DNA of 35,769 bases from Alphaproteobacteria bacterium (GTDB lineage Bacteria > Pseudomonadota > Alphaproteobacteria > UBA9219): NCBI GenBank assembly GCA_013289265.1, contig JABDAH010000015.1, positions 1 through 35,769 on the forward strand. Direction: 5' to 3'. Positions 2,367 to 35,769 of the stretch are shown in pieces. How positions within the stretch are numbered: the stretch's first letter is position 1; each line of letters begins with the position of its first letter. The translations under genes were made by a program, and so were the position numbers. The notes under the pieces are model-generated. The model was not told the DNA's origin, searched no databases, and saw only the letters and a list, made by a program, of their open reading frames with translations.

Positions 2367-3563
2367 TTAAGTTATTACAGGCATCAGAACAATTTCTGTA
2401 ATTTCGGCGGATGTTCCAAGCCGCATCGGCGGCCCCCAGAAGCCAGTTCCCTCACTGACATAGATCTGACTATTGCTGTTGGGGTATCGATGCAACCCGC
2501 TAACATAAGGTTGCTGGATATAAACAAAGTAATTCCATGGCCATATCTGACCACCATGCGTATGTCCTGACAGTTGCAGGTCAACTCCAAGTGTCGCAGC
2601 TTCGCGTATGGCGGCTGGCTGATGCGCAAGAAGGACGGTCGGGATTTCCGTATTCCTGCCTTCCAATGCTTTTGGCAGGTCTGGGCCATGGCCGGGGAAA
2701 CTAGCGCTGGCCCAATCATCAACCCCCGCAAGCTCTATCAGGCTGTCATTATCGTCGTTCTGGATTGTCACCCGCTCATTGCGTAAAACGCGGATACCGA
2801 GGCTTTCGATATGTTCGATCCATTCATCAACGCCTGAGTAATATTCGTGGTTGCCGGTGATAAAAAATACGCCGTGTTTCGCCTGCAATGCACGTAGAGG
2901 TTCTACATGCGGACTAAGATCTGCTACGGAGCCATCTACCAAATCACCGGTAATAGCGATGATATCTGGATTAAGGGCATTCGTCCGCTCAACCACATGT
3001 TTCAGCCACTCGCCGTTTATCATGGGGCCGATATGAAGATCGGTAATCTGCGCGATGCGAAAACCGCCACGCGCAGGTGGCAACTTGGCCAGATGCACAT
3101 CAACGCGCTTGACCTGAACAGGACGCAGCCCATTCCATAAAGATGCCGCCGATACGAGCGCGGCTGATCCCAAGGCCGTTAGCCCCAACCCCTTTTGTAA
3201 AAATAGCCGTCTTTCGGGGCTAGGTTCACTTACTGCAAGGGACATAACAATTTTGGCAATATCACAGCCGAGTAGTGTAAGCCCAAGGATCATCGCAATG
3301 CCGAGCCAAGTAAAAGCCACCCATACAAAAGGGGATGCTGTTTCGCGCGGCAATATGCGCCCCAATGGCATGGCAGCCATCAGGATAATGAGAAGGGCAC
3401 CTAATCCAATCGCCAGATATCTGCGGCTATGGCTATTTAATTCGAAATAATCGCTGAGGCGAGAGAAGATATAGAAATGCCAGACACCAAAAACGATCGA
3501 TGCTAGGGACAGGAAAAGAGTGATATGGAGCGAGCGGGACAAAGCATCCTCGTACGGTTGCAT
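2367..3563 (-). CDS. Membrane-anchored metallophosphoesterase (YkuE/YaeI type) with internal twin-arginine motif
   Basis: 398-residue calcineurin-like phosphoesterase. All metal-site motifs are present: D175-L-H177, GD at 206-207, GNHE 237-240, H314 in LAHQ, and GHTH 333-336. The N-terminal 150 residues carry three hydrophobic segments (~14-33, 49-68, 79-103) and a fourth at ~125-146, just after the motif E-R118-R119-L-F-L-Q-K. Characterised relatives (YkuE, YaeI) are Tat substrates acting outside the cytoplasm on phosphodiesters; here the RR motif is internal. Arg/Lys distribution fits an N-out topology placing RR in the cytoplasm and the catalytic domain in the periplasm. The substrate is unknown. 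The gene precedes ohr by 14 bases. Confidence 0.85.
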   Translation of the reverse strand: MQPYEDALSRSLHITLFLSLASIVFGVWHFYIFSRLSDYFELNSHSRRYLAIGLGALLIILMAAMPLGRILPRETASPFVWVAFTWLGIAMILGLTLLGCDIAKIVMSLAVSEPSPERRLFLQKGLGLTALGSAALVSAASLWNGLRPVQVKRVDVHLAKLPPARGGFRIAQITDLHIGPMINGEWLKHVVERTNALNPDIIAITGDLVDGSVADLSPHVEPLRALQAKHGVFFITGNHEYYSGVDEWIEHIESLGIRVLRNERVTIQNDDNDSLIELAGVDDWASASFPGHGPDLPKALEGRNTEIPTVLLAHQPAAIREAATLGVDLQLSGHTHGGQIWPWNYFVYIQQPYVSGLHRYPNSNSQIYVSEGTGFWGPPMRLGTSAEITEIVLMPVIT

Positions 3564-3565
3564 AA

Positions 3566-3585
3566 GTTCCCAATAAATAGGGAAC
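3566..3585. promoter_or_regulatory. Hairpin covering the Shine-Dalgarno of the metallophosphoesterase gene
   Basis: GTTCCC at 3566-3571 and GGGAAC at 3580-3585 form a perfect six-base inverted repeat with an eight-base A/T loop. On the minus strand the 3' arm GGGAAC is the only Shine-Dalgarno-like sequence before the ATG at 3563, so folding of the mRNA would hide it. This could tune translation, or the dyad could be a protein-binding site. Only the symmetry is seen; the function is inferred. Confidence 0.4.
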
Positions 3586-3598
3586 AGGGGATAATGAA

Positions 3599-3657
3599 CC
3601 TATATGGATTAACGGCTTGCAGCTTGAAGTCAATCCGTCCTTCCTTTAATCCATAGG
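3599..3657. promoter_or_regulatory. Structured leader or dyad upstream of the NRAMP transporter gene
   Basis: CCTATATGGATTAA at 3599-3612 is complementary to TTAATCCATAGG at 3646-3657, with a two-base bulge, and an inner ACGG/CCGT pair (3612-3615 with 3635-3638) shares the edge of the arm. This leaves a stem-loop ending 21 bases before the TTG start. It may be a 5' UTR element or an operator pair in a divergent promoter region. I do not recognise a yybP-ykoY manganese riboswitch or a confident Mur/MntR box in it. Confidence 0.35.
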
Positions 3658-3678
3658 CATGGTTTTTATGGTGATCCT

Positions 3679-4989
3679 TTGTTGAATTTGCCCAAAACAG
3701 CTACGCCGCCTTTCTGCCCGTCAGAAATTAAGGGCTCCATTTCCTTTAAGGCTTCAGATGGTCTGGGCAGCAAATTACTGCGCTTTATGGGGCCGGGTTT
3801 TCTGGTCGCAGTCGGCTATATGGACCCCGGCAATTGGGCGACGGATATCGAAGCCGGTTCCCGCTTTGGTTATGACCTTATCTTTATTGTCGCTTTTTCC
3901 AGCTTCGCGGCGATTCTACTACAATCGCTCAGTATGCGGCTTGGTGTTGTTACGGGTAAAGATCTTGCGCGCCTGACCCGAGAGCGCAACAGCAAAACCG
4001 CCTCGATATTTTTGTGGCTGATGGCGGAGGTTTCAATCATCGCCTGCGACCTTGCTGAGGTTCTCGGTGGTGCATTAGCTTTTCATTTGTTGCTAGGCGT
4101 ACCTTTGCTATTCGGCATCGTTCTGACCATTCTGGATACATTCATTGTATTGGGCCTGCAGGGCCGAAATTTTCGCACTGTGGAAGCCATTATTCTCGGC
4201 CTCGTAATAACAGTCGGCGCCTGTTTTATTGTTGAACTGGCCCTTATCAAACCTTTCTGGCCGGATGTTTTCGCAGGTTTCGTGCCTTCATTTAGTAAAC
4301 TGAGCCAGCCTTACGCCGTACCTTTGGCTGTTGGTATTATCGGCGCCACGGTAATGCCGCATAATCTTTATCTTCATTCCTCGATTATTCAGACGCGCAT
4401 TGTCAGCGCCGATAATATTAGTAAACGCCAGGCCATCCGCTTTTCGACCTTGGATACTGTGACATCGCTATTTTTTGCGATGCTGATTAACTGCGCCATT
4501 CTGATGCTGGCGGCAGGCGCATTCCATTCTACAGGCCAGGTCGTTGCCGATATCGGCGATGCCTATAATCTCCTGAATCCTCTTCTGGGATCAGCGTTGG
4601 CCGCGCCACTGTTTGGCATCGCCTTGCTGGCATCCGGACAAAGTTCCACTTTTACCGGGACCATTGCCGGGCAGGTGATTATGGAAGGATTTATTGACCT
4701 CAAAATACCCTGTTGGCAGAGGCGTCTTATTACCCGCAGTCTTGCCCTCATTCCTGCCTTACTTGGCATCTGGATGCTGGGCGACCACAGTATTGGAAAA
4801 CTGCTGGTGCTCAGCCAAATTATACTATGCCTGCAGCTGCCATTTGCCATCTATCCTTTGATACGCCAAACGGCGGACAAAAAACTCATGGGCGAATTTG
4901 CGACTTCCCGCCGTATTCAAACCATCGCATACCTGATTTTTGCAATGATCGTTTGCGGAAACCTGTGGCTTGTTTGGCGATTTTTTTAG
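3679..4989 (+). CDS. mntH: NRAMP-family divalent metal (Mn2+/Fe2+) transporter
   Basis: 436-residue inner-membrane transporter of the NRAMP family, a proton-coupled importer of Mn2+ and related divalent ions. The TM1 metal-binding motif D49-P-G-N52 sits in GYMDPGNWATDIEAGS, and the TM6 motif M226-P-H-N229 in GATVMPHNLYLHSS; these are the family's metal ligands. About eleven hydrophobic segments can be followed to the C-terminus. No ATG fits; the frame opens with tandem TTG codons at 3679 and 3682, which give the normal ~37-residue N-terminal tail before the GPGFL motif. A weak TTG start behind a structured leader suggests low or regulated expression. Read divergently from the metallophosphoesterase gene. 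Confidence 0.93.
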   Translation: MLNLPKTATPPFCPSEIKGSISFKASDGLGSKLLRFMGPGFLVAVGYMDPGNWATDIEAGSRFGYDLIFIVAFSSFAAILLQSLSMRLGVVTGKDLARLTRERNSKTASIFLWLMAEVSIIACDLAEVLGGALAFHLLLGVPLLFGIVLTILDTFIVLGLQGRNFRTVEAIILGLVITVGACFIVELALIKPFWPDVFAGFVPSFSKLSQPYAVPLAVGIIGATVMPHNLYLHSSIIQTRIVSADNISKRQAIRFSTLDTVTSLFFAMLINCAILMLAAGAFHSTGQVVADIGDAYNLLNPLLGSALAAPLFGIALLASGQSSTFTGTIAGQVIMEGFIDLKIPCWQRRLITRSLALIPALLGIWMLGDHSIGKLLVLSQIILCLQLPFAIYPLIRQTADKKLMGEFATSRRIQTIAYLIFAMIVCGNLWLVWRFF

Positions 4990-25659: not shown

Positions 25660-25750
25660 GGACGACCTGAAACTGTGGGCTTTAGGTTTCTAACATACTC
25701 TCTGTATATTTGCTGAAAAACAGGTTAAAAGCATTTCAGAGGAGATGATT

Positions 25751-26305
25751 ATGGCCCCAAAATCCAAGAAAGTCGTTAAAAAACAGTCCCCCATGGCTCT
25801 TGTAAGCATTGCAATGGGCAGCCAGTCCGACTGGGAAACCATGCAACACGCCGCAGGCGTCCTGAGCGGCTTTGGCATCCCTTTTGAGGCCGTTATCGTA
25901 TCAGCCCACCGTACGCCACAACGGCTGTTTTCCTATGCTACTTCCGCTGCATCGCGCGGCCTCCAGGTAATTATCGCAGGCGCTGGTGGCGCTGCGCATC
26001 TACCAGGCATGGTCTCATCCCTTACAACTCTGCCGGTTTTTGGTGTTCCCGTTCGCAGTAAATCACTGGACGGTCTGGACAGCCTGCTATCTATCGCGCA
26101 AATGCCCGCAGGCATACCCGTGGGTACGCTGGCAATTGGTGAAGCAGGGGCCACAAACGCCGGATTACTAGCTGTCGCCGTTCTCGCTTTGCAGGATGAA
26201 ATTCTGGCGCAGGAACTTCGCAACTGGCGCAGCGCGCAAACGGCATCTATCGCTGAAAAACCGAAATCGAATTCCAAAGCAAAAACACGGCGCAAGAAAA
26301 AATGA
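25751..26305 (+). CDS. purE: N5-carboxyaminoimidazole ribonucleotide mutase
   Basis: 184 residues from ATG 25751, chosen because AGAGGAG ends six bases upstream; an ATG at 25745 directly touches the Shine-Dalgarno. PurE converts N5-CAIR to CAIR in purine synthesis. Class I motifs are present: [20 protein letters not shown] and [11 protein letters not shown]. Odd points are a basic N-terminal extension ([10 protein letters not shown]) and a lysine/arginine-rich tail (KAKTRRKKK), making it longer than the usual ~160 residues. The stop overlaps purK by ATGA, giving a coupled purEK operon. Confidence 0.96.
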
Positions 26306-27390
26306 AGGTAATTGCTCCGGGCTCAATGATTGGTATTCTGGGTGGTGGGCAATTAGGCCGCATGACGGCGCTGGCTGCCGCACGACTTGGTTATAAGTGC
26401 CATATTTTTTGTCAGGATAAGAATGAGCCCGCTGTTGCCGTGTCCGCAGCCCATACACTGGGCGCTTTTACGGACTACGCAGCTTTAGAAAAATTCGCAA
26501 AGCAGGTGGATGTCATTACGCTGGAATGGGAAAATGTCCCGCTGGAAGCTTTGGAATTTCTTAGCCAGCACACTTCCGCCTACCCATCAGCAAATGTATT
26601 GCGCATTTCCCAAGACCGCGCAGCAGAGAAGAATTTTGCGCGCACCAACGGCATCGGCACGGCAGATTTTGTCGTTGTGCAATCTATCGCAGAACTCGAA
26701 AAAGCGCTGGAATCTTTCCAACTACCAGCCATTCTGAAATCCACCCGCATGGGTTACGACGGCAAGGGACAAGTGAAAGTCACGCCGGGCATGAAAGCCG
26801 CCGATGCGTGGAAAGAAATGGGTAGTGACGTAGGCATTCTGGAAGCCTTCGTTGATTTCGCCTGCGAAGTCTCAGTTATAGTCGCTTGCCGCGCAGACGG
26901 CGCAATGGCGGCCTATCCTGCCGTAGAAAATATTCACCGCAATCACATTCTGGCAGAAACACATGCGCCGGCTGGCATCGACCCGGCTATTGCCAATGAA
27001 GCCGAACATATTGCCCGAAAGCTTACAGAAAAATTACAGGTGGTTGGGTTATTGGCTGTAGAGATGTTTGTCTTAAAACAGCCCAATAAACAGGGCCAAC
27101 GCGTGCTGATGAATGAAGTTGCGCCTAGACCCCACAATTCCGGCCACTGGACCATGGACGCCTGTGCCTGCAGCCAGTTTGAACAATTGGTACGGGCGGT
27201 TTGTGGATTGCCACTTGCCTCGATTTCGCCACATAATCGTGCCGTTATGCATAATCTGATCGGCGATGACATTCAGCGCTGGCAGCAAATTTTGCAAGAT
27301 CCCCAAGCCTGCCTTCATCTGTACGGAAAAACCGAAGCGCGGGCTGGCCGCAAAATGGGGCATGTGACTTATCTAAAAGGCGCCTGGTAA
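26302..27390 (+). CDS. purK: N5-carboxyaminoimidazole ribonucleotide synthetase
   Basis: 362 residues, ATP-grasp enzyme making N5-CAIR from AIR, bicarbonate and ATP, the step before PurE. N-terminal [11 protein letters not shown] (residues ~9-19) is the family hallmark; the ATP-grasp domain includes [16 protein letters not shown], and the C-terminal [14 protein letters not shown] carries the Mg2+ and substrate residues. The ATG lies in the ATGA overlap with purE. The class I PurE plus PurK pair fits the bacterial two-step route. The dehydrogenase gene starts 25 bases downstream and may be in the same transcript. Confidence 0.97.
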
Positions 27391-28556: not shown

Positions 28557-28988
28557 ATGCAGCCCGCCACCAACCAATGGCTACTCTTTGCCCTAGGTTC
28601 GGCTTTTTTTGCGGCTCTGACTGCGATCCTTGGCAAACTCGGCGTTGCCGATATCAATTCCAATCTCGCCACTCTCATTCGTACCGTAGTTATTTTCACC
28701 CTAACACTCGGTATCGTTGTGATGCGCCATGAGTGGCAGCCACTAAACAAACTATCTGCTTACAGCATCAGCATGCTGATTTTATCCGGCTTGGCCACTG
28801 GCCTGTCATGGCTTTGCTATTATCGCGCTTTGCAATTGGGGCCGGCGTCCAAAGTCGCACCGATCGATAAACTAAGCGTCGCCCTTGTTATCGTTTTTGC
28901 CGTTTTATTTTTAAATGAGGCTTTGACGTGGAAAATGGCACTTGGCGGTGTATTGATAACGGCGGGGGCAGTATTGCTGGCGCTTTAG
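28557..28988 (+). CDS. Half-size EamA/DMT-family transporter
   Basis: 143 residues with five hydrophobic segments, corresponding to a single EamA domain rather than the usual tandem pair. The GPASKVAPIDKLSVALV segment and the closing LGGVLITAGAVLLAL are typical EamA features. A one-domain protein must dimerise, either with itself or with the DUF486 protein whose gene ends two bases upstream. The substrate is unknown; relatives export small metabolites or amines. The last four bases overlap the convergent HAMP-protein gene. Confidence 0.87.
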   Translation: MQPATNQWLLFALGSAFFAALTAILGKLGVADINSNLATLIRTVVIFTLTLGIVVMRHEWQPLNKLSAYSISMLILSGLATGLSWLCYYRALQLGPASKVAPIDKLSVALVIVFAVLFLNEALTWKMALGGVLITAGAVLLAL

Positions 28989-31114
28989 CCTTTAATCGCA
29001 TGCATATCAGCTTTCAACTGCTGCATATGTTCATCCAGCACGCCAAGCGTCGCGACCAGTTCCGTCAGAACCAGAGTTTGTTGTTCCATTTGTTCCTGCA
29101 TATCTTGCGGCAGGGCGGCGGCAATTGATACAGGCTGGATCTGAGAATTATTGATAATCATATTCGTCAGCTGTTCACGCACCTGCGACAGGTTACGGTT
29201 GGTTGTTTCGAAACCGCTCTTGATCTCCAATAGCAAATCACCCTCAGGCGCATGTTCCACCGTGTCGCCAGACTTACTACCCGGCTGCAATTGAAGCATC
29301 GACAGCTTCAGCGAAAGCTCAGTAATCTGCCTTGAGATATCTTTAATCTGTTCCTGCAACGGATTCTGAGGTGCAGCAGATTGCGCCCCGACAAAGTCCT
29401 GTATCTTGGTATGTGTAAGCTCAATAGAAGCAATAAGCCCTTCCAACCGCATGGCGGCTTCATTCGAGACCATCGTAATGGCGTCCGACGGATCAGCTAT
29501 AGGCGCAGAATAAGTTGAAGCGGGAAGGGCAGCAGGAACGGCCATTTGATCTAGTCGCACTTTATTCACTTCCGCTTGCTCAGCGATAATTGTTTCCATC
29601 TTCTGCTGACTGTCTCCAATGCTGGCCAGCAAGCTTTCAAGTCGATGCGATGTCTCAGCCGCTACAGTCGCGGCAATACCGTCAGTATCAACTACCGGGG
29701 CAGAAACAGTAGGGGGCTGAATAATTGTATTATGCAATTTTTCAATCGCCTCATTCAGGCGGCTTTGCGTAGATTCAGTTGTCTCCGCCAGAACCTTGCC
29801 GCTGGCTTGCAATAGATTAACCGCACCGAACAAGCGCCCACTAAGGTCGTCAGCCGTTCCGGAGAATTTCTTGATCGACTCTTCACTTTGTTCTGCGACT
29901 GTTTTCAGGCCTCGCTCAGTCAGAATAAGCGACTGCAGAACCTGTGATACCTGTTTGCCCGTTATATGCGTTATCTCGCTCATCCCCTGTGCGCGTTCTT
30001 GCAAGAACGGCACAATACGATTTAACTGATCGGCAGCATGTTCCTGCGCATGTTTGAGGGCGGTAGCGGACCCCACCATATCCTGTACGATCTGCTTTAC
30101 CTGAATGTCGCCTGTCTGACCACGCTGCAAAATATTATGCAGAACCGTTTGTACCTGGGCCGATATTTGGGCGATGGCCTGCTGCTGCTGCGTTACCGCA
30201 TCGGCCAAAGTGGTCGCCTGCTGCCGTACCTGTTCTGAATCGCGAGTGATGAGATGAATCATCGCCTCGAACATCGATTTGGTATTACCCTCAAAGCGAA
30301 TGCGAACCGGTCCCTGATCGCTGAGCAAGGACATATCTGGCAATTGGCTGAAATGATAACGCGCCAGATCCACTGTGCGCGCCAGCTCGCCTACCATATC
30401 GGACCGCTCCATACCCCAAATGGAAGTACGTAAATCGCCGTGCGCCATATTTTTGATGCTCTGCACAAGCGCACGCAACGGTGCGGAATTGCGGTCGCGC
30501 AGCGACAGATAAATACCAACGGACATTGCAGCCGCGATGATAAGGCTACCCCAACATACTAATGTCAGAAGCATCGCCCAGAATTGCAACTGGCTCTGCG
30601 CTGCTAGGCGGTTAACCGCAGCCGCGCTGGTAATCCGTGAATCCAGAACGGGCAAGGCGGCATAAAGCGGCGCCATATCGACACTGGTGAACAGCGAAGG
30701 AGAACTGGTCGATTTTTCTGCCTGCAACATCGCCGCATCAAAGGTGCTGACTATTGCCTGTAAATCGCGCCGGGTCTCTGTCGGAAGTTTTTCCGGCATG
30801 CGCGTGATGATATCGTCTGCCGCTTTTATCTGCGTCTTCATATCCTGCAAAAGCACAGGGTCATGAGAAACAACAAAATTTTGTGCGATGCCGATAAAGC
30901 CGCTGTAACCCAAGCTGCGTCGAAGTTTATCAAAAGCTTCCTGATCGCTTGTAGCCGCTTCTGGCGCAGCAAGAATAGCCTGCGCATTATCCAATTCGAA
31001 TTTCAGGTACCCGGCAAAGCCGATCATCACGAGGCAGACGAAAACAACCATTCCCAGAACTAGTCCGGTAAAACGGCCCGTATAGTTAACGGAAGGAGAT
31101 GTCGGAGTCGCCAT
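28985..31114 (-). CDS. Membrane HAMP-domain coiled-coil protein without an MCP signalling hairpin
   Basis: 709 residues. TM1 ~13-35, a ~140-residue helical periplasmic region, TM2 ~178-202, then a HAMP-like stretch (LRALVQSIKNMAHGDL ... RSDMVGELARTV). The rest is long coiled coil, rich in Gln, with several low-complexity Pro/Ala linkers. The highly conserved chemoreceptor tip is missing, so it is not a normal methyl-accepting chemotaxis protein although the layout is similar. It may be a signal sensor coupled to another output, or a structural/scaffold protein. Monocistronic; divergent from the deaminase gene across ~220 bases. Confidence 0.75.
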   Translation of the reverse strand: MATPTSPSVNYTGRFTGLVLGMVVFVCLVMIGFAGYLKFELDNAQAILAAPEAATSDQEAFDKLRRSLGYSGFIGIAQNFVVSHDPVLLQDMKTQIKAADDIITRMPEKLPTETRRDLQAIVSTFDAAMLQAEKSTSSPSLFTSVDMAPLYAALPVLDSRITSAAAVNRLAAQSQLQFWAMLLTLVCWGSLIIAAAMSVGIYLSLRDRNSAPLRALVQSIKNMAHGDLRTSIWGMERSDMVGELARTVDLARYHFSQLPDMSLLSDQGPVRIRFEGNTKSMFEAMIHLITRDSEQVRQQATTLADAVTQQQQAIAQISAQVQTVLHNILQRGQTGDIQVKQIVQDMVGSATALKHAQEHAADQLNRIVPFLQERAQGMSEITHITGKQVSQVLQSLILTERGLKTVAEQSEESIKKFSGTADDLSGRLFGAVNLLQASGKVLAETTESTQSRLNEAIEKLHNTIIQPPTVSAPVVDTDGIAATVAAETSHRLESLLASIGDSQQKMETIIAEQAEVNKVRLDQMAVPAALPASTYSAPIADPSDAITMVSNEAAMRLEGLIASIELTHTKIQDFVGAQSAAPQNPLQEQIKDISRQITELSLKLSMLQLQPGSKSGDTVEHAPEGDLLLEIKSGFETTNRNLSQVREQLTNMIINNSQIQPVSIAAALPQDMQEQMEQQTLVLTELVATLGVLDEHMQQLKADMHAIKG

Positions 31115-31334: not shown

Positions 31335-32804
31335 GTGAGTAATATTTCCAGCCCCTACATTCCACCCCTTTCTGACGACATAATCAAAAAAGTGTTGGAG
31401 GCTTTAGCGCTTACCAATCAGGCTGCTTTCCAAAATGTCACCCACAATGACTCCGGCAAGTCCATTCTAGATGCTGATGGCAACGTCCTAGAGGGTGAGT
31501 TTTCGCGCGGTGGTCCATTCGGCGCAGTTGTCGCAATCATTCTAGAAGATGGCACTTTTGAACTTATAGGTGCGCCCAAAGGCAATAATGTCGTCGGCAG
31601 CGGCGTAGCCAGCCAACACGCTGAAGATCAAGCATCACAGCCTGATGATTATGGAATCCTGGTTCAAAGGCTGACTGAGTTAAAACGGGAAGGGCATAAT
31701 CCAACCGTCTTGATGATTTCATCGGGTCAGTCCTGCACAACCTGTCACACAAAACAGGAAATATGGGCGCGTGATCTGGTAGCAACAAAACTCATCAATC
31801 TCGGTTACTTTATAACGATTTACGGCGCGACTTACGATGCCACTTTCAAAATCGCCCAATTTTATGACAGGCAATATGCCGCCGCGATGGCTTTCTTTGC
31901 GAAAAATCCTAATCACCCCCTAAACCTGATCCATCATGAAGCGATCAAATTTAGAAACGCCCCCTTCGCCGTTCGAAAAATAATAAATAAAGCATCTTCA
32001 CCTACGGCAGTGGTCATGCGGCCACCCAAGCCCGGCAGCCGTAGTTCCAATGACAGAGTTTATGTAGTAGGCAAGGAAAGTCGCACCAAAAACGACCTTT
32101 TTTCCACGGCCGAGGTTACCGCTATACGCGCCGCCTGCTTTAAAAACAGAAAGGAAGGCACATTTGCTTCATGGGAAGTGGATGGCACCATGTACACAAC
32201 TGCTTCTGAAATCGGGCCTTTGCTTTTTGCCGAAGCTGGCTGGACCCATATCAATCGCATAGTTTATGTAAAGATGCCTTCCGCCTTCCGCCGTCATAAA
32301 CTGGATATGCGCGAAATGCCCGAAATAAGTAACACTCAATTTCTAAAAACTGTTGCAGGAGGATACCGGGATAAAGGCGCATTCGTTCGTGTCGTCCGCG
32401 ATGAGAGTTTTGATAATTCAGCCCAATATGAATGGCAGAGAATTTTAAAACAAAAAGGCCTTCAATTATACAACGGCAGTGCGGTAGCCCGTCTGATCGA
32501 ATTGGAGATGAGCGCCCAAACACGCCGGGACTTCGCGGCTTTCGATATCAGAAAATTTGCTGACGCTGCCGCTTGCAGTTGCGATACACACAAACACAAT
32601 TGGCCCTTACGACTGCTGAATAAAACGACCGGGCAATTAGATAAAGACTCAGCTAATCGATACTCCCGGTCCGCGAGACCCGCACATCGCGGTGCACGGA
32701 TATCCCCAGCAGCAGCCCGCAGCCAATCAACAACGTCAACATTGCCGTGCCCCCGTATGACACTAACGGCAAAGGTATCCCCACAACTGGTATTGTCCCG
32801 GTGA
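31335..32804 (+). CDS. Tandem deaminase-fold protein, second domain degenerate
   Basis: 489 residues from GTG 31335 (AGAGAG seven bases upstream); a GTG at 31236 would add 33 residues but has no proper Shine-Dalgarno. Domain 1 (~10-230) has a full zinc deaminase site: GPFGAVV, then H95-A-E97 and C134-T-T-C137. Domain 2 (~245-340) matches the same fold, but T258-A-E260 replaces HAE and SEIGPLL (291-297) replaces the S-E-P-C-P-M-C-type motif, so the zinc ligands are gone. The target (nucleoside, base or RNA) is unknown. The last 50 codons are antisense to rodA, hinting at a lost original stop. I do not know a characterised relative. Confidence 0.75.
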   Translation: MSNISSPYIPPLSDDIIKKVLEALALTNQAAFQNVTHNDSGKSILDADGNVLEGEFSRGGPFGAVVAIILEDGTFELIGAPKGNNVVGSGVASQHAEDQASQPDDYGILVQRLTELKREGHNPTVLMISSGQSCTTCHTKQEIWARDLVATKLINLGYFITIYGATYDATFKIAQFYDRQYAAAMAFFAKNPNHPLNLIHHEAIKFRNAPFAVRKIINKASSPTAVVMRPPKPGSRSSNDRVYVVGKESRTKNDLFSTAEVTAIRAACFKNRKEGTFASWEVDGTMYTTASEIGPLLFAEAGWTHINRIVYVKMPSAFRRHKLDMREMPEISNTQFLKTVAGGYRDKGAFVRVVRDESFDNSAQYEWQRILKQKGLQLYNGSAVARLIELEMSAQTRRDFAAFDIRKFADAAACSCDTHKHNWPLRLLNKTTGQLDKDSANRYSRSARPAHRGARISPAAARSQSTTSTLPCPRMTLTAKVSPQLVLSR

Positions 32805-33911: not shown

Positions 33912-34577
33912 ATGCAAGCTGCCGTTATCGTTTTTCCCGGATCCAATCGCGAAGGTGATGCCGTCAAGGCGCTGGAACGCGCCACTGGTAAAAAGCCGCA
34001 AATCGTCTGGCACGGCGATAGCGAATTGCCGAAAACTGACCTGATCGTTCTACCTGGCGGTTTTTCTTATGGAGATTATCTGCGCACCGGCGCAATGGCT
34101 GCCCATTCCCCCATCATGCGTGAAGTTATTGATCGCGCCAAAAAAGGCGTACGCGTCTGGGGCATCTGTAACGGATTCCAAATTCTCTGTGAGACCGGGT
34201 TAGTTCCCGGCATCTTGCTACGCAATGCCAGCATGAAGTTTGTCTGCCGACGCGTTACCCTAAAGGTTGAAAACACCGACAGCGACTATACGCGCCTGTG
34301 CAAACCAAAGCAGGAGTTGAAAGTCATTGTCGCTCATGGCGACGGCAATTATTTCGCGCAAAAAGACGCATTAAAAGAAATGGAAGATAACGGCCAGATC
34401 GCTTTCCGTTATGTCGATAATCCTAACGGTTCCGTCAGCGATATCGCAGGCGTGTTCAACAAACAACGCAACGTGTTAGGAATGATGCCGCATCCCGAAG
34501 ATGCCGTGGAACCGCTGCATGGCAGCACCGACGGTGCAGTTTTATTTGAGAGCATAGCAAAAACTTTGTCTGTTTAA
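33912..34577 (+). CDS. purQ: Phosphoribosylformylglycinamidine synthase glutaminase subunit
   Basis: 221-residue class I glutamine amidotransferase that supplies ammonia to PurL in purine synthesis. Catalytic triad: C86 in GICNGFQIL, H194 and E196 in PHPED. N-terminal VIVFPGSNREGD and PGGFSYGDYLRTGA are family signatures. A free PurQ implies a PurS-PurQ-small PurL complex rather than the large fused PurL, as in alphaproteobacteria and Gram-positives; purS and purL are not in the window. No Shine-Dalgarno is visible because the palindrome runs to within six bases of the ATG. Confidence 0.96.
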   Translation: MQAAVIVFPGSNREGDAVKALERATGKKPQIVWHGDSELPKTDLIVLPGGFSYGDYLRTGAMAAHSPIMREVIDRAKKGVRVWGICNGFQILCETGLVPGILLRNASMKFVCRRVTLKVENTDSDYTRLCKPKQELKVIVAHGDGNYFAQKDALKEMEDNGQIAFRYVDNPNGSVSDIAGVFNKQRNVLGMMPHPEDAVEPLHGSTDGAVLFESIAKTLSV

Positions 34578-34991: not shown

Positions 34992-35296
34992 GAATCCTTA
35001 TTGCCTATAGCTTTATTTTTTTATTCCTACTTATTTCTACAGTAGCTAGCGCGCAAGAATTTCGCGATGAATGGTATCAATGTCAAAAAGACGAAGAATG
35101 TGTTGTGGTGTGTGGTTATTGCGGTTTTGAATGGGCTATAAATAAAAACTCCTCGGAAGAGGTGAGTAAAATAGTATCGAAATGGACTGTATGCCAAAAA
35201 TCAAAAGTGTGCACGTCAAGCAAAATCAATCCAAGCATCACTGCGAAATGTATAGATAATAAATGTGAAATCATGTGGCCAGATAAAGAACAATGA
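34988..35296 (+). CDS. Cys-rich small exported protein
   Basis: 102 residues. A signal peptide (MRILIAYSFIFLFLLISTVASA, cleavage before QEF) is followed by ~80 residues with eight cysteines (WYQC, EEC, VVC, GYC, TVC, KVC, AKC, NKC), an even number suited to four disulfides outside the cytoplasm. I do not recognise the family; it could be an inhibitor-like, binding or toxin-like domain. AAAGG lies seven bases before the ATG. The stop overlaps the start of the zeta-like kinase gene by ATGA, so both are translated together. Confidence 0.75.
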   Translation: MRILIAYSFIFLFLLISTVASAQEFRDEWYQCQKDEECVVVCGYCGFEWAINKNSSEEVSKIVSKWTVCQKSKVCTSSKINPSITAKCIDNKCEIMWPDKEQ

Positions 35297-35769
35297 CCCA
35301 ACCTGTGGTTTATATGATCGCGGGACCGAATGGAGCCGGGAAAACAACGGCAGCGATGAAACTGTTGCCAGACTTTTTATCAATCCATGAGTTTGTTAAT
35401 GCTGATGAAATGGCTCGCGGATTAAATCCTCTTAATCCCGATGGGCAAGGCGTAGCAGCCGGTCGCCTTATGTTACAAAGAATCGACAATCTGATTGCCG
35501 AAGGCAAAAGCTTTGCCTTCGAGACGACCGGTGCAAGCCATGTATTTGCCGATAAATTAAAGCAAGCCAAAGAACAAGGTTATCGATTGGGGTTAGTCTA
35601 TCTCTGGCTACCAAACGCCGCTTTTGCTAATAAACGTGTGCAATTTCGCGTTGTTCAGGGTGGCCATCATATTCCAGAAGATACAGTTGAACGGCGTTAT
35701 AGCCGCGGACTATATAATCTTGTAAATTCATACCTACCGTTAGTCGACCAAGCCAGTATTATTGATAGC
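35293..35769 (+). CDS. Zeta-toxin-like P-loop kinase (COG4185), 3' partial
   Basis: The first 159 residues; the gene continues past the window. The Walker A loop GPNGAGKTT lies at ~11-19, VNADEMARGLNP follows, and FETTGASH gives the mobile/substrate segment with VQFRVVQGGHHIP and VERRYSRGL as the arginine-rich lid. This is the COG4185/zeta-toxin family of small ATPases or kinases, some of which phosphorylate UDP-GlcNAc as toxins. There is no visible epsilon-like antitoxin; the coupled upstream gene encodes an exported Cys-rich protein, which cannot act as a classical cytoplasmic antitoxin. Toxicity is therefore uncertain. Confidence 0.85.
   Translation, partial: MTQPVVYMIAGPNGAGKTTAAMKLLPDFLSIHEFVNADEMARGLNPLNPDGQGVAAGRLMLQRIDNLIAEGKSFAFETTGASHVFADKLKQAKEQGYRLGLVYLWLPNAAFANKRVQFRVVQGGHHIPEDTVERRYSRGLYNLVNSYLPLVDQASIIDS

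Follow-up and report, generated by a model that had tools for sequence, protein, structure and literature searches.

The window, that is, the whole 35,769-nucleotide stretch of alphaproteobacterial DNA analyzed here, contains a gene for a protein in which two deaminase-type domains are joined in tandem, the first with an intact zinc site and the second with a degenerate one (Table 1). A Shine-Dalgarno-like AGAGAG lies upstream of the GTG start at 31335, and a GGPFGA motif occupies residues 59-64 of domain 1 in the motif alignment. An earlier note on this DNA, made from the sequence, had placed the motifs of domain 1 at H95-A-E97 and C134xxC137 and their counterparts in domain 2 at T258-A-E260 and SEIGPLL (291-297), and all of these positions are correct. 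The open reading frame continues for 108 residues past the conserved Y-N-G and shares 152 bp with rodA, which is convergent to it. Residues 390-489 (about 100) are unique to the window protein, being absent from every homologue, and are predicted to be disordered; a lost stop codon or a frameshift is a possible origin of this extension. Elsewhere in the window, the minus strand encodes a 709-aa N-terminal membrane protein (28985-31114) with long coiled-coil-like stretches and no Pfam match, and a Zeta-toxin/AAA_33-like kinase gene at 35293-35769 runs off the end of the window.

Table 1. Coordinates of the tandem deaminase gene, its parts, and the annotated purine genes in the window
Feature	Positions	Strand	Details and basis
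Tandem deaminase gene	31335..32804	+	GTG start, TGA stop, 489 aa; aligned with 25 homologues
Domain 1 (live)	31374..31949	+	Helix 14-36 to strand 200-205; AlphaFold2 secondary structure, motif alignment
H95-A96-E97, zinc ligand and proton-shuttle Glu	31617..31625	+	26/26
C134-x-x-C137, zinc ligands	31734..31745	+	26/26
Interdomain short helix 211-218	31965..31988	+	AlphaFold2 secondary structure
Domain 2 (pseudo-deaminase)	32004..32456	+	Strand 224-229 to helix 362-374
T258-A259-E260 at the H-A-E position	32106..32114	+	26-sequence alignment
S291-EIGPLL-297 at the E-P-C-x-x-C position	32205..32225	+	Gly-Pro conserved instead (alignment)
Y379-N380-G381, C-terminal Tyr cap (putative)	32469..32477	+	Tyr and Gly 26/26 (alignment)
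C-terminal extension	32502..32801	+	In the window sequence only; predicted disordered; overlaps rodA
purQ, FGAM synthase glutaminase subunit, downstream of the deaminase gene	33912..34577	+	Pfam; subunit named by eye
purE and purK, upstream of the deaminase gene	25745..27390	+	Pfam

Profile searches recovered the family in 7 of 33 genomes from the order to which the window belongs, in 19 of 142 from a second order of Alphaproteobacteria, and in one further genome (G249). One copy in the window's order (G028, L007 at ∼2620) is interrupted by one frameshift that falls between the HAE and CxxC motifs and reflects either decay or an assembly error. A 398-genome draw from the phylum returned, apart from the window, only single-domain matches of the GuaD or NE0047 type. 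IMG/VR scans gave no relatives of the tandem deaminase, which is therefore not phage-borne there. The window protein had no match in Pfam or NCBIfam, and single homologues matched PF00383 only below threshold (best E value, 0.011). Literature searches, whose reach did not extend to the 2011 deaminase survey, turned up no account of a guanine deaminase with tandem domains. This is an undescribed family that Pfam and NCBIfam models do not cover, and it adds a new live/dead tandem to the guanine-deaminase branch.

The alignment comprised 26 distinct full-length alphaproteobacterial homologues with a median pairwise identity of 33%, some pairs being near-identical. All five residues of the domain 1 site (H95, A96, E97, C134, and C137) are present in each of the 26 sequences. 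The zinc His of domain 2 is missing from all 26, and both Cys residues occur together in none of them. The first Cys is replaced, by Gly in 25/26, a Cys at the second position is found only in the homologue P0007, and Glu260 is kept in 16/26 and so is not conserved. The flanking motifs xAEVxAIRxAC and W-x-x-I are still recognizable in domain 2, where D248 (25/26), W280, W303, and E327 (26/26), and N333 (25/26) are invariant or nearly so. Both domains have a deaminase fold in the AlphaFold2 models. The reading of domain 2 as a pseudo-deaminase, conserved and sharing the deaminase fold, is borne out by the predicted structure, the fold search, and the 26-sequence alignment, and the profile search for homologues turned up no intact HAE/CxxC in domain 2 among the 26 full-length sequences. 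Because the loss of the second site is uniform across homologues, the inactivation is old and shared. The conservation of domain 2 across the homologues also rules out chance or sequencing error as the origin of the dead domain.

The superfamily of the protein is clear, as domain 1 carries HxE and CxxC throughout and Foldseek matches the cytidine deaminase superfamily, whose fold is a five-stranded alpha/beta/alpha one, with a probability of 1.00 to GuaD, GSDA, ADAT2, and TadA. When the family profile was searched against PDB sequences (hmmsearch), Bacillus subtilis GuaD (1wkq/1tiy) came first, on domain 2 (E value, 2.3e-5), and the NE0047 guanine deaminase matched weakly, on domain 1. Domain 2 of P0007 alone matched GuaD (E value, 0.004) as its sole hit below an E value of 0.1, while domain 1 of the same protein matched no deaminase; the dead domain has kept more of the ancestral sequence. 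In profile comparison, single-domain GuaD-type proteins matched domain 2 with a probability of 98.7% and domain 1 (NE0047-type) with one of 97%, which supports a GuaD-type kinship for both. The AlphaFold2 model of P0007 (pLDDT, 89.6; pTM, 0.90) has B. subtilis GuaD as its best PDB match, at a TM score of 0.66 to 0.72 over 175 to 178 columns, and most TadA chains, when aligned over their length (∼160 columns), reach a root mean square deviation of 17 to 19 Å. The model of the window protein scored lower (pLDDT, 76; pTM, 0.76), its disordered end lowering both values. On these profile and model comparisons, the tandem protein is placed with the guanine deaminases (GuaD) rather than with the tRNA or DNA editors.

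In the domain tree, domain 1 falls among NE0047-type proteins (92/95) and domain 2 beside a GuaD-type protein (96/92), a placement that would mean the fusion of two paralogues. The branches are long, however, and a sister relation of the two domains is not rejected (AU p = 0.45), so that the tandem may have arisen by either fusion or duplication. The Asp that contacts guanine in GuaD (D114) has an equivalent in about 16/26 sequences, with Ala169 in the window protein, and this partial conservation means that the substrate may differ between subfamilies. One subfamily (P0008, P0009, P0011, L061, L064, L068, and L069) replaces YGATYxDT by FKATY[D/E][Q/R]T or something close to it, carries ∼30 additional residues ahead of domain 2, and has Gln or Arg at the D114 equivalent. 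This subfamily may act on a different substrate.

The C-terminal end of domain 2 bears on the question of why a dead domain has been kept. W367, Y379, and G381, which follow domain 2, are each present in 26/26 sequences, and Y379-[N/D]-G381 aligns with the terminal Tyr of GuaD, a residue found in 26/26 of the single-domain GuaD-type proteins examined, as well as with the C-terminal IYN(S/A)G of NE0047-type proteins. Domain 1 has no Tyr tail of its own, as no column of positions 185-222 contains Tyr in more than 1 of the 26 sequences. For B. subtilis GuaD, the 1WKQ paper is said to describe a swapped tail (Tyr156) that closes the active site of the partner. The PDB title of 1WKQ announces a domain-swapped structure, and the entry is listed as domain swapped with a hinge at residues 117-123 (PMC5510828). 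The stretch of domain 2 that matches this hinge contains the conserved E327 and N333. The plant enzyme GSDA has a C-terminal Tyr185 that caps its substrate and is required for catalysis, and mutating Y185 or truncating the tail impairs the enzyme (PMC9739398). A tail that closed over the dead pocket of its own domain would gain nothing from staying invariant, and the simplest interpretation is therefore a cap over domain 1 in trans. The good structural fit to the swapped GuaD chain and the poor fit to TadA agree with a swapped C-terminal segment and are indirect evidence for it, and pLDDT is low for the tail itself in the two models. Taken from alignment and models, the dead domain probably survives because its tail closes a lid over the live active site.

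A gene for xanthine phosphoribosyltransferase (XPRT; NF006613, above cut-off) lies beside the deaminase gene in 9 of the 26 loci, these nine being spread over two orders. It is convergent with the deaminase gene in two genomes of the window's order (G013, with one gene between them, and G018) and on the same strand in seven genomes of the other order (G820, G825, G826, G837, G838, G840, and G845), with 4-bp overlaps between the two genes in L091 (6112-6115) and L097 (5969-5972). In the seven other-order genomes, the linked XPRT is a second copy (hypergeometric p = 6e-5, with relatedness ignored). One of these loci (L090 of G845, 2709-3721) has two tandem XPRT-like genes next to the deaminase gene, of which the second scores narrowly below the cut-off of the family. 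The GMP synthase gene guaA is adjacent or near in 11 loci, and the IMP dehydrogenase gene guaB is nearby in several; these linkages are partly inherited within one genome family. The window's deaminase gene has no neighboring XPRT, the XPRT gene being on contig C14, and G859 has a guaA-XPRT pair without the deaminase. The XPRT and guaA neighbors imply that the likely product is xanthine, feeding XMP and GMP, and the linkage thus suggests that the enzyme returns guanine, as xanthine, to GMP. Counting against this pathway, XPRT-type enzymes could use guanine directly, and the need for a deamination step is not obvious.

We hypothesize, with moderate confidence, that the protein is a covalent pseudo-dimer of GuaD type with one active site, in which the dead domain serves the live one as fold partner and lid. 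In this model, a single chain derived from guanine-deaminase-type enzymes would bind zinc in domain 1 and deaminate hydrolytically there, most likely converting guanine to xanthine, and domain 2 would stand in for the second GuaD subunit to give a dimer-type interface. Helix 362-374 and Y379-[N/D]-G381 would cross over and close the domain 1 site in the manner of the swapped tail of B. subtilis GuaD, and domain 1, being tail-less, would leave one competent, capped site per chain. The xanthine would then pass to XMP through XPRT and to GMP through GuaA. As to origin, we put at about even chances a history in which a swapped GuaD homodimer was fused and one of its sites died, with the trans-acting C-terminal lid remaining invariant. 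The earlier note had called domain 2 substrate-binding or regulatory; its pseudo-domain stands, and the role can be sharpened to that of a candidate fold partner that donates a lid to domain 1.

The most serious alternative keeps the tandem architecture and changes the substrate, to another free base or to a damaged, aza-purine, or triazine-type compound, perhaps depending on the subfamily. The inconstant D114 equivalent (Ala in the window protein, Gln or Arg in the FKATY[D/E][Q/R]T-like group) speaks for it, as does the GuaD-fold relative Msmeg3575, solved with ammeline and 5-azacytosine according to PDB titles. The XPRT/guaA linkage, however, implies xanthine as the product at least in the linked members, of which 7/9 have the Asp, and we regard a non-guanine substrate as possible but doubtful. 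A regulatory purine sensor, with a nucleobase or nucleotide held in the zinc-less pocket of domain 2 and exerting allosteric control over domain 1, would explain why polar and aromatic residues of domain 2 are (nearly) invariant despite the loss of the zinc ligands, and the link to purine genes is congenial to it. The pocket positions equivalent to HAE nevertheless vary widely, Glu260 (16/26) among them, and E327 and N333, located where GuaD has its hinge, may act for domain 1 rather than for domain 2. We consider a sensor unlikely.

That domain 2 is a nonfunctional relic or a folding aid outside the active site would agree with its vanished zinc site and the drifting sequence of its old pocket; yet W367, Y379, and G381 are invariant among proteins only a third identical at the median (33%), and domain 1 has no tail of its own, and we consider a relic improbable. 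Least credible, to the point of being very hard to sustain, is a nucleic-acid editor that, like ADAT2/3 or APOBEC3, would act on tRNA, mRNA, or DNA, as the earlier note had proposed in part. The fold search with the window model does also return APOBEC3G and ADAT2, but full-length APOBEC3G matches at a TM score of about 0.2 or less, the nearest relatives in sequence and structure are guanine and guanosine deaminases, and the neighbors are the purine-salvage genes XPRT, guaA, and guaB. PADLOC gave no match, leaving a defense role unsupported.

If the covalent pseudo-dimer model is right, the family would provide a natural one-active-site pseudo-dimer and a direct demonstration of why a pseudoenzyme domain is retained. 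It also lets one test whether dead domains persist when they supply a trans-acting part, here a Tyr lid, and it points to a guanine-xanthine-XMP-GMP salvage unit in small-genome Alphaproteobacteria.

Pairs of a live and a dead deaminase are known in other branches. The parallel with ADAT2/ADAT3 drawn in the earlier note is a loose one: an active and an inactive partner are combined in both cases, but ADAT2/ADAT3 are two proteins acting on tRNA, and ADAT3 keeps the zinc ligands that are gone here. Escherichia coli cytidine deaminase (Cdd) has one live and one inactive domain on one chain, the inactive one being architectural. It shares the layout of a live N-terminal and a zinc-less C-terminal domain, but the tandem family has no sequence match to a curated Cdd model and is thus analogous rather than a member. 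Human CDADC1 likewise joins a live and an architectural inactive deaminase domain on one chain (PMC12088426), but its inactive domain is N-terminal, keeps PCxxC, and loses only the Glu, whereas the tandem protein has its inactive domain at the C terminus, with zinc binding lost. Cdd and CDADC1 belong to other superfamily branches and act on other substrates, and the tandem architecture is convergent with them in logic.

Closer to the tandem family stand the enzymes acting on guanine and guanosine. B. subtilis GuaD (1WKQ/1TIY) shares the GGPFGA, N-x-V, HAE, CxxC, and C-terminal Tyr landmarks and has the swapped C-terminal segment, but its two identical live domains are on two chains, whereas the tandem protein joins a live domain to a dead one in the same chain and has only one tail. 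NE0047-type guanine deaminases (2G84, 4HRQ, and 7C3S; ∼200 aa) have in common with it the IYN-G type of C terminus and differ in being single-domain proteins. In Arabidopsis guanosine deaminase GSDA (7DBF and others), the Tyr185 cap is likewise C-terminal (PMC9739398), but that enzyme, unlike the tandem protein, is a homodimer of live subunits and takes a nucleoside as its substrate.
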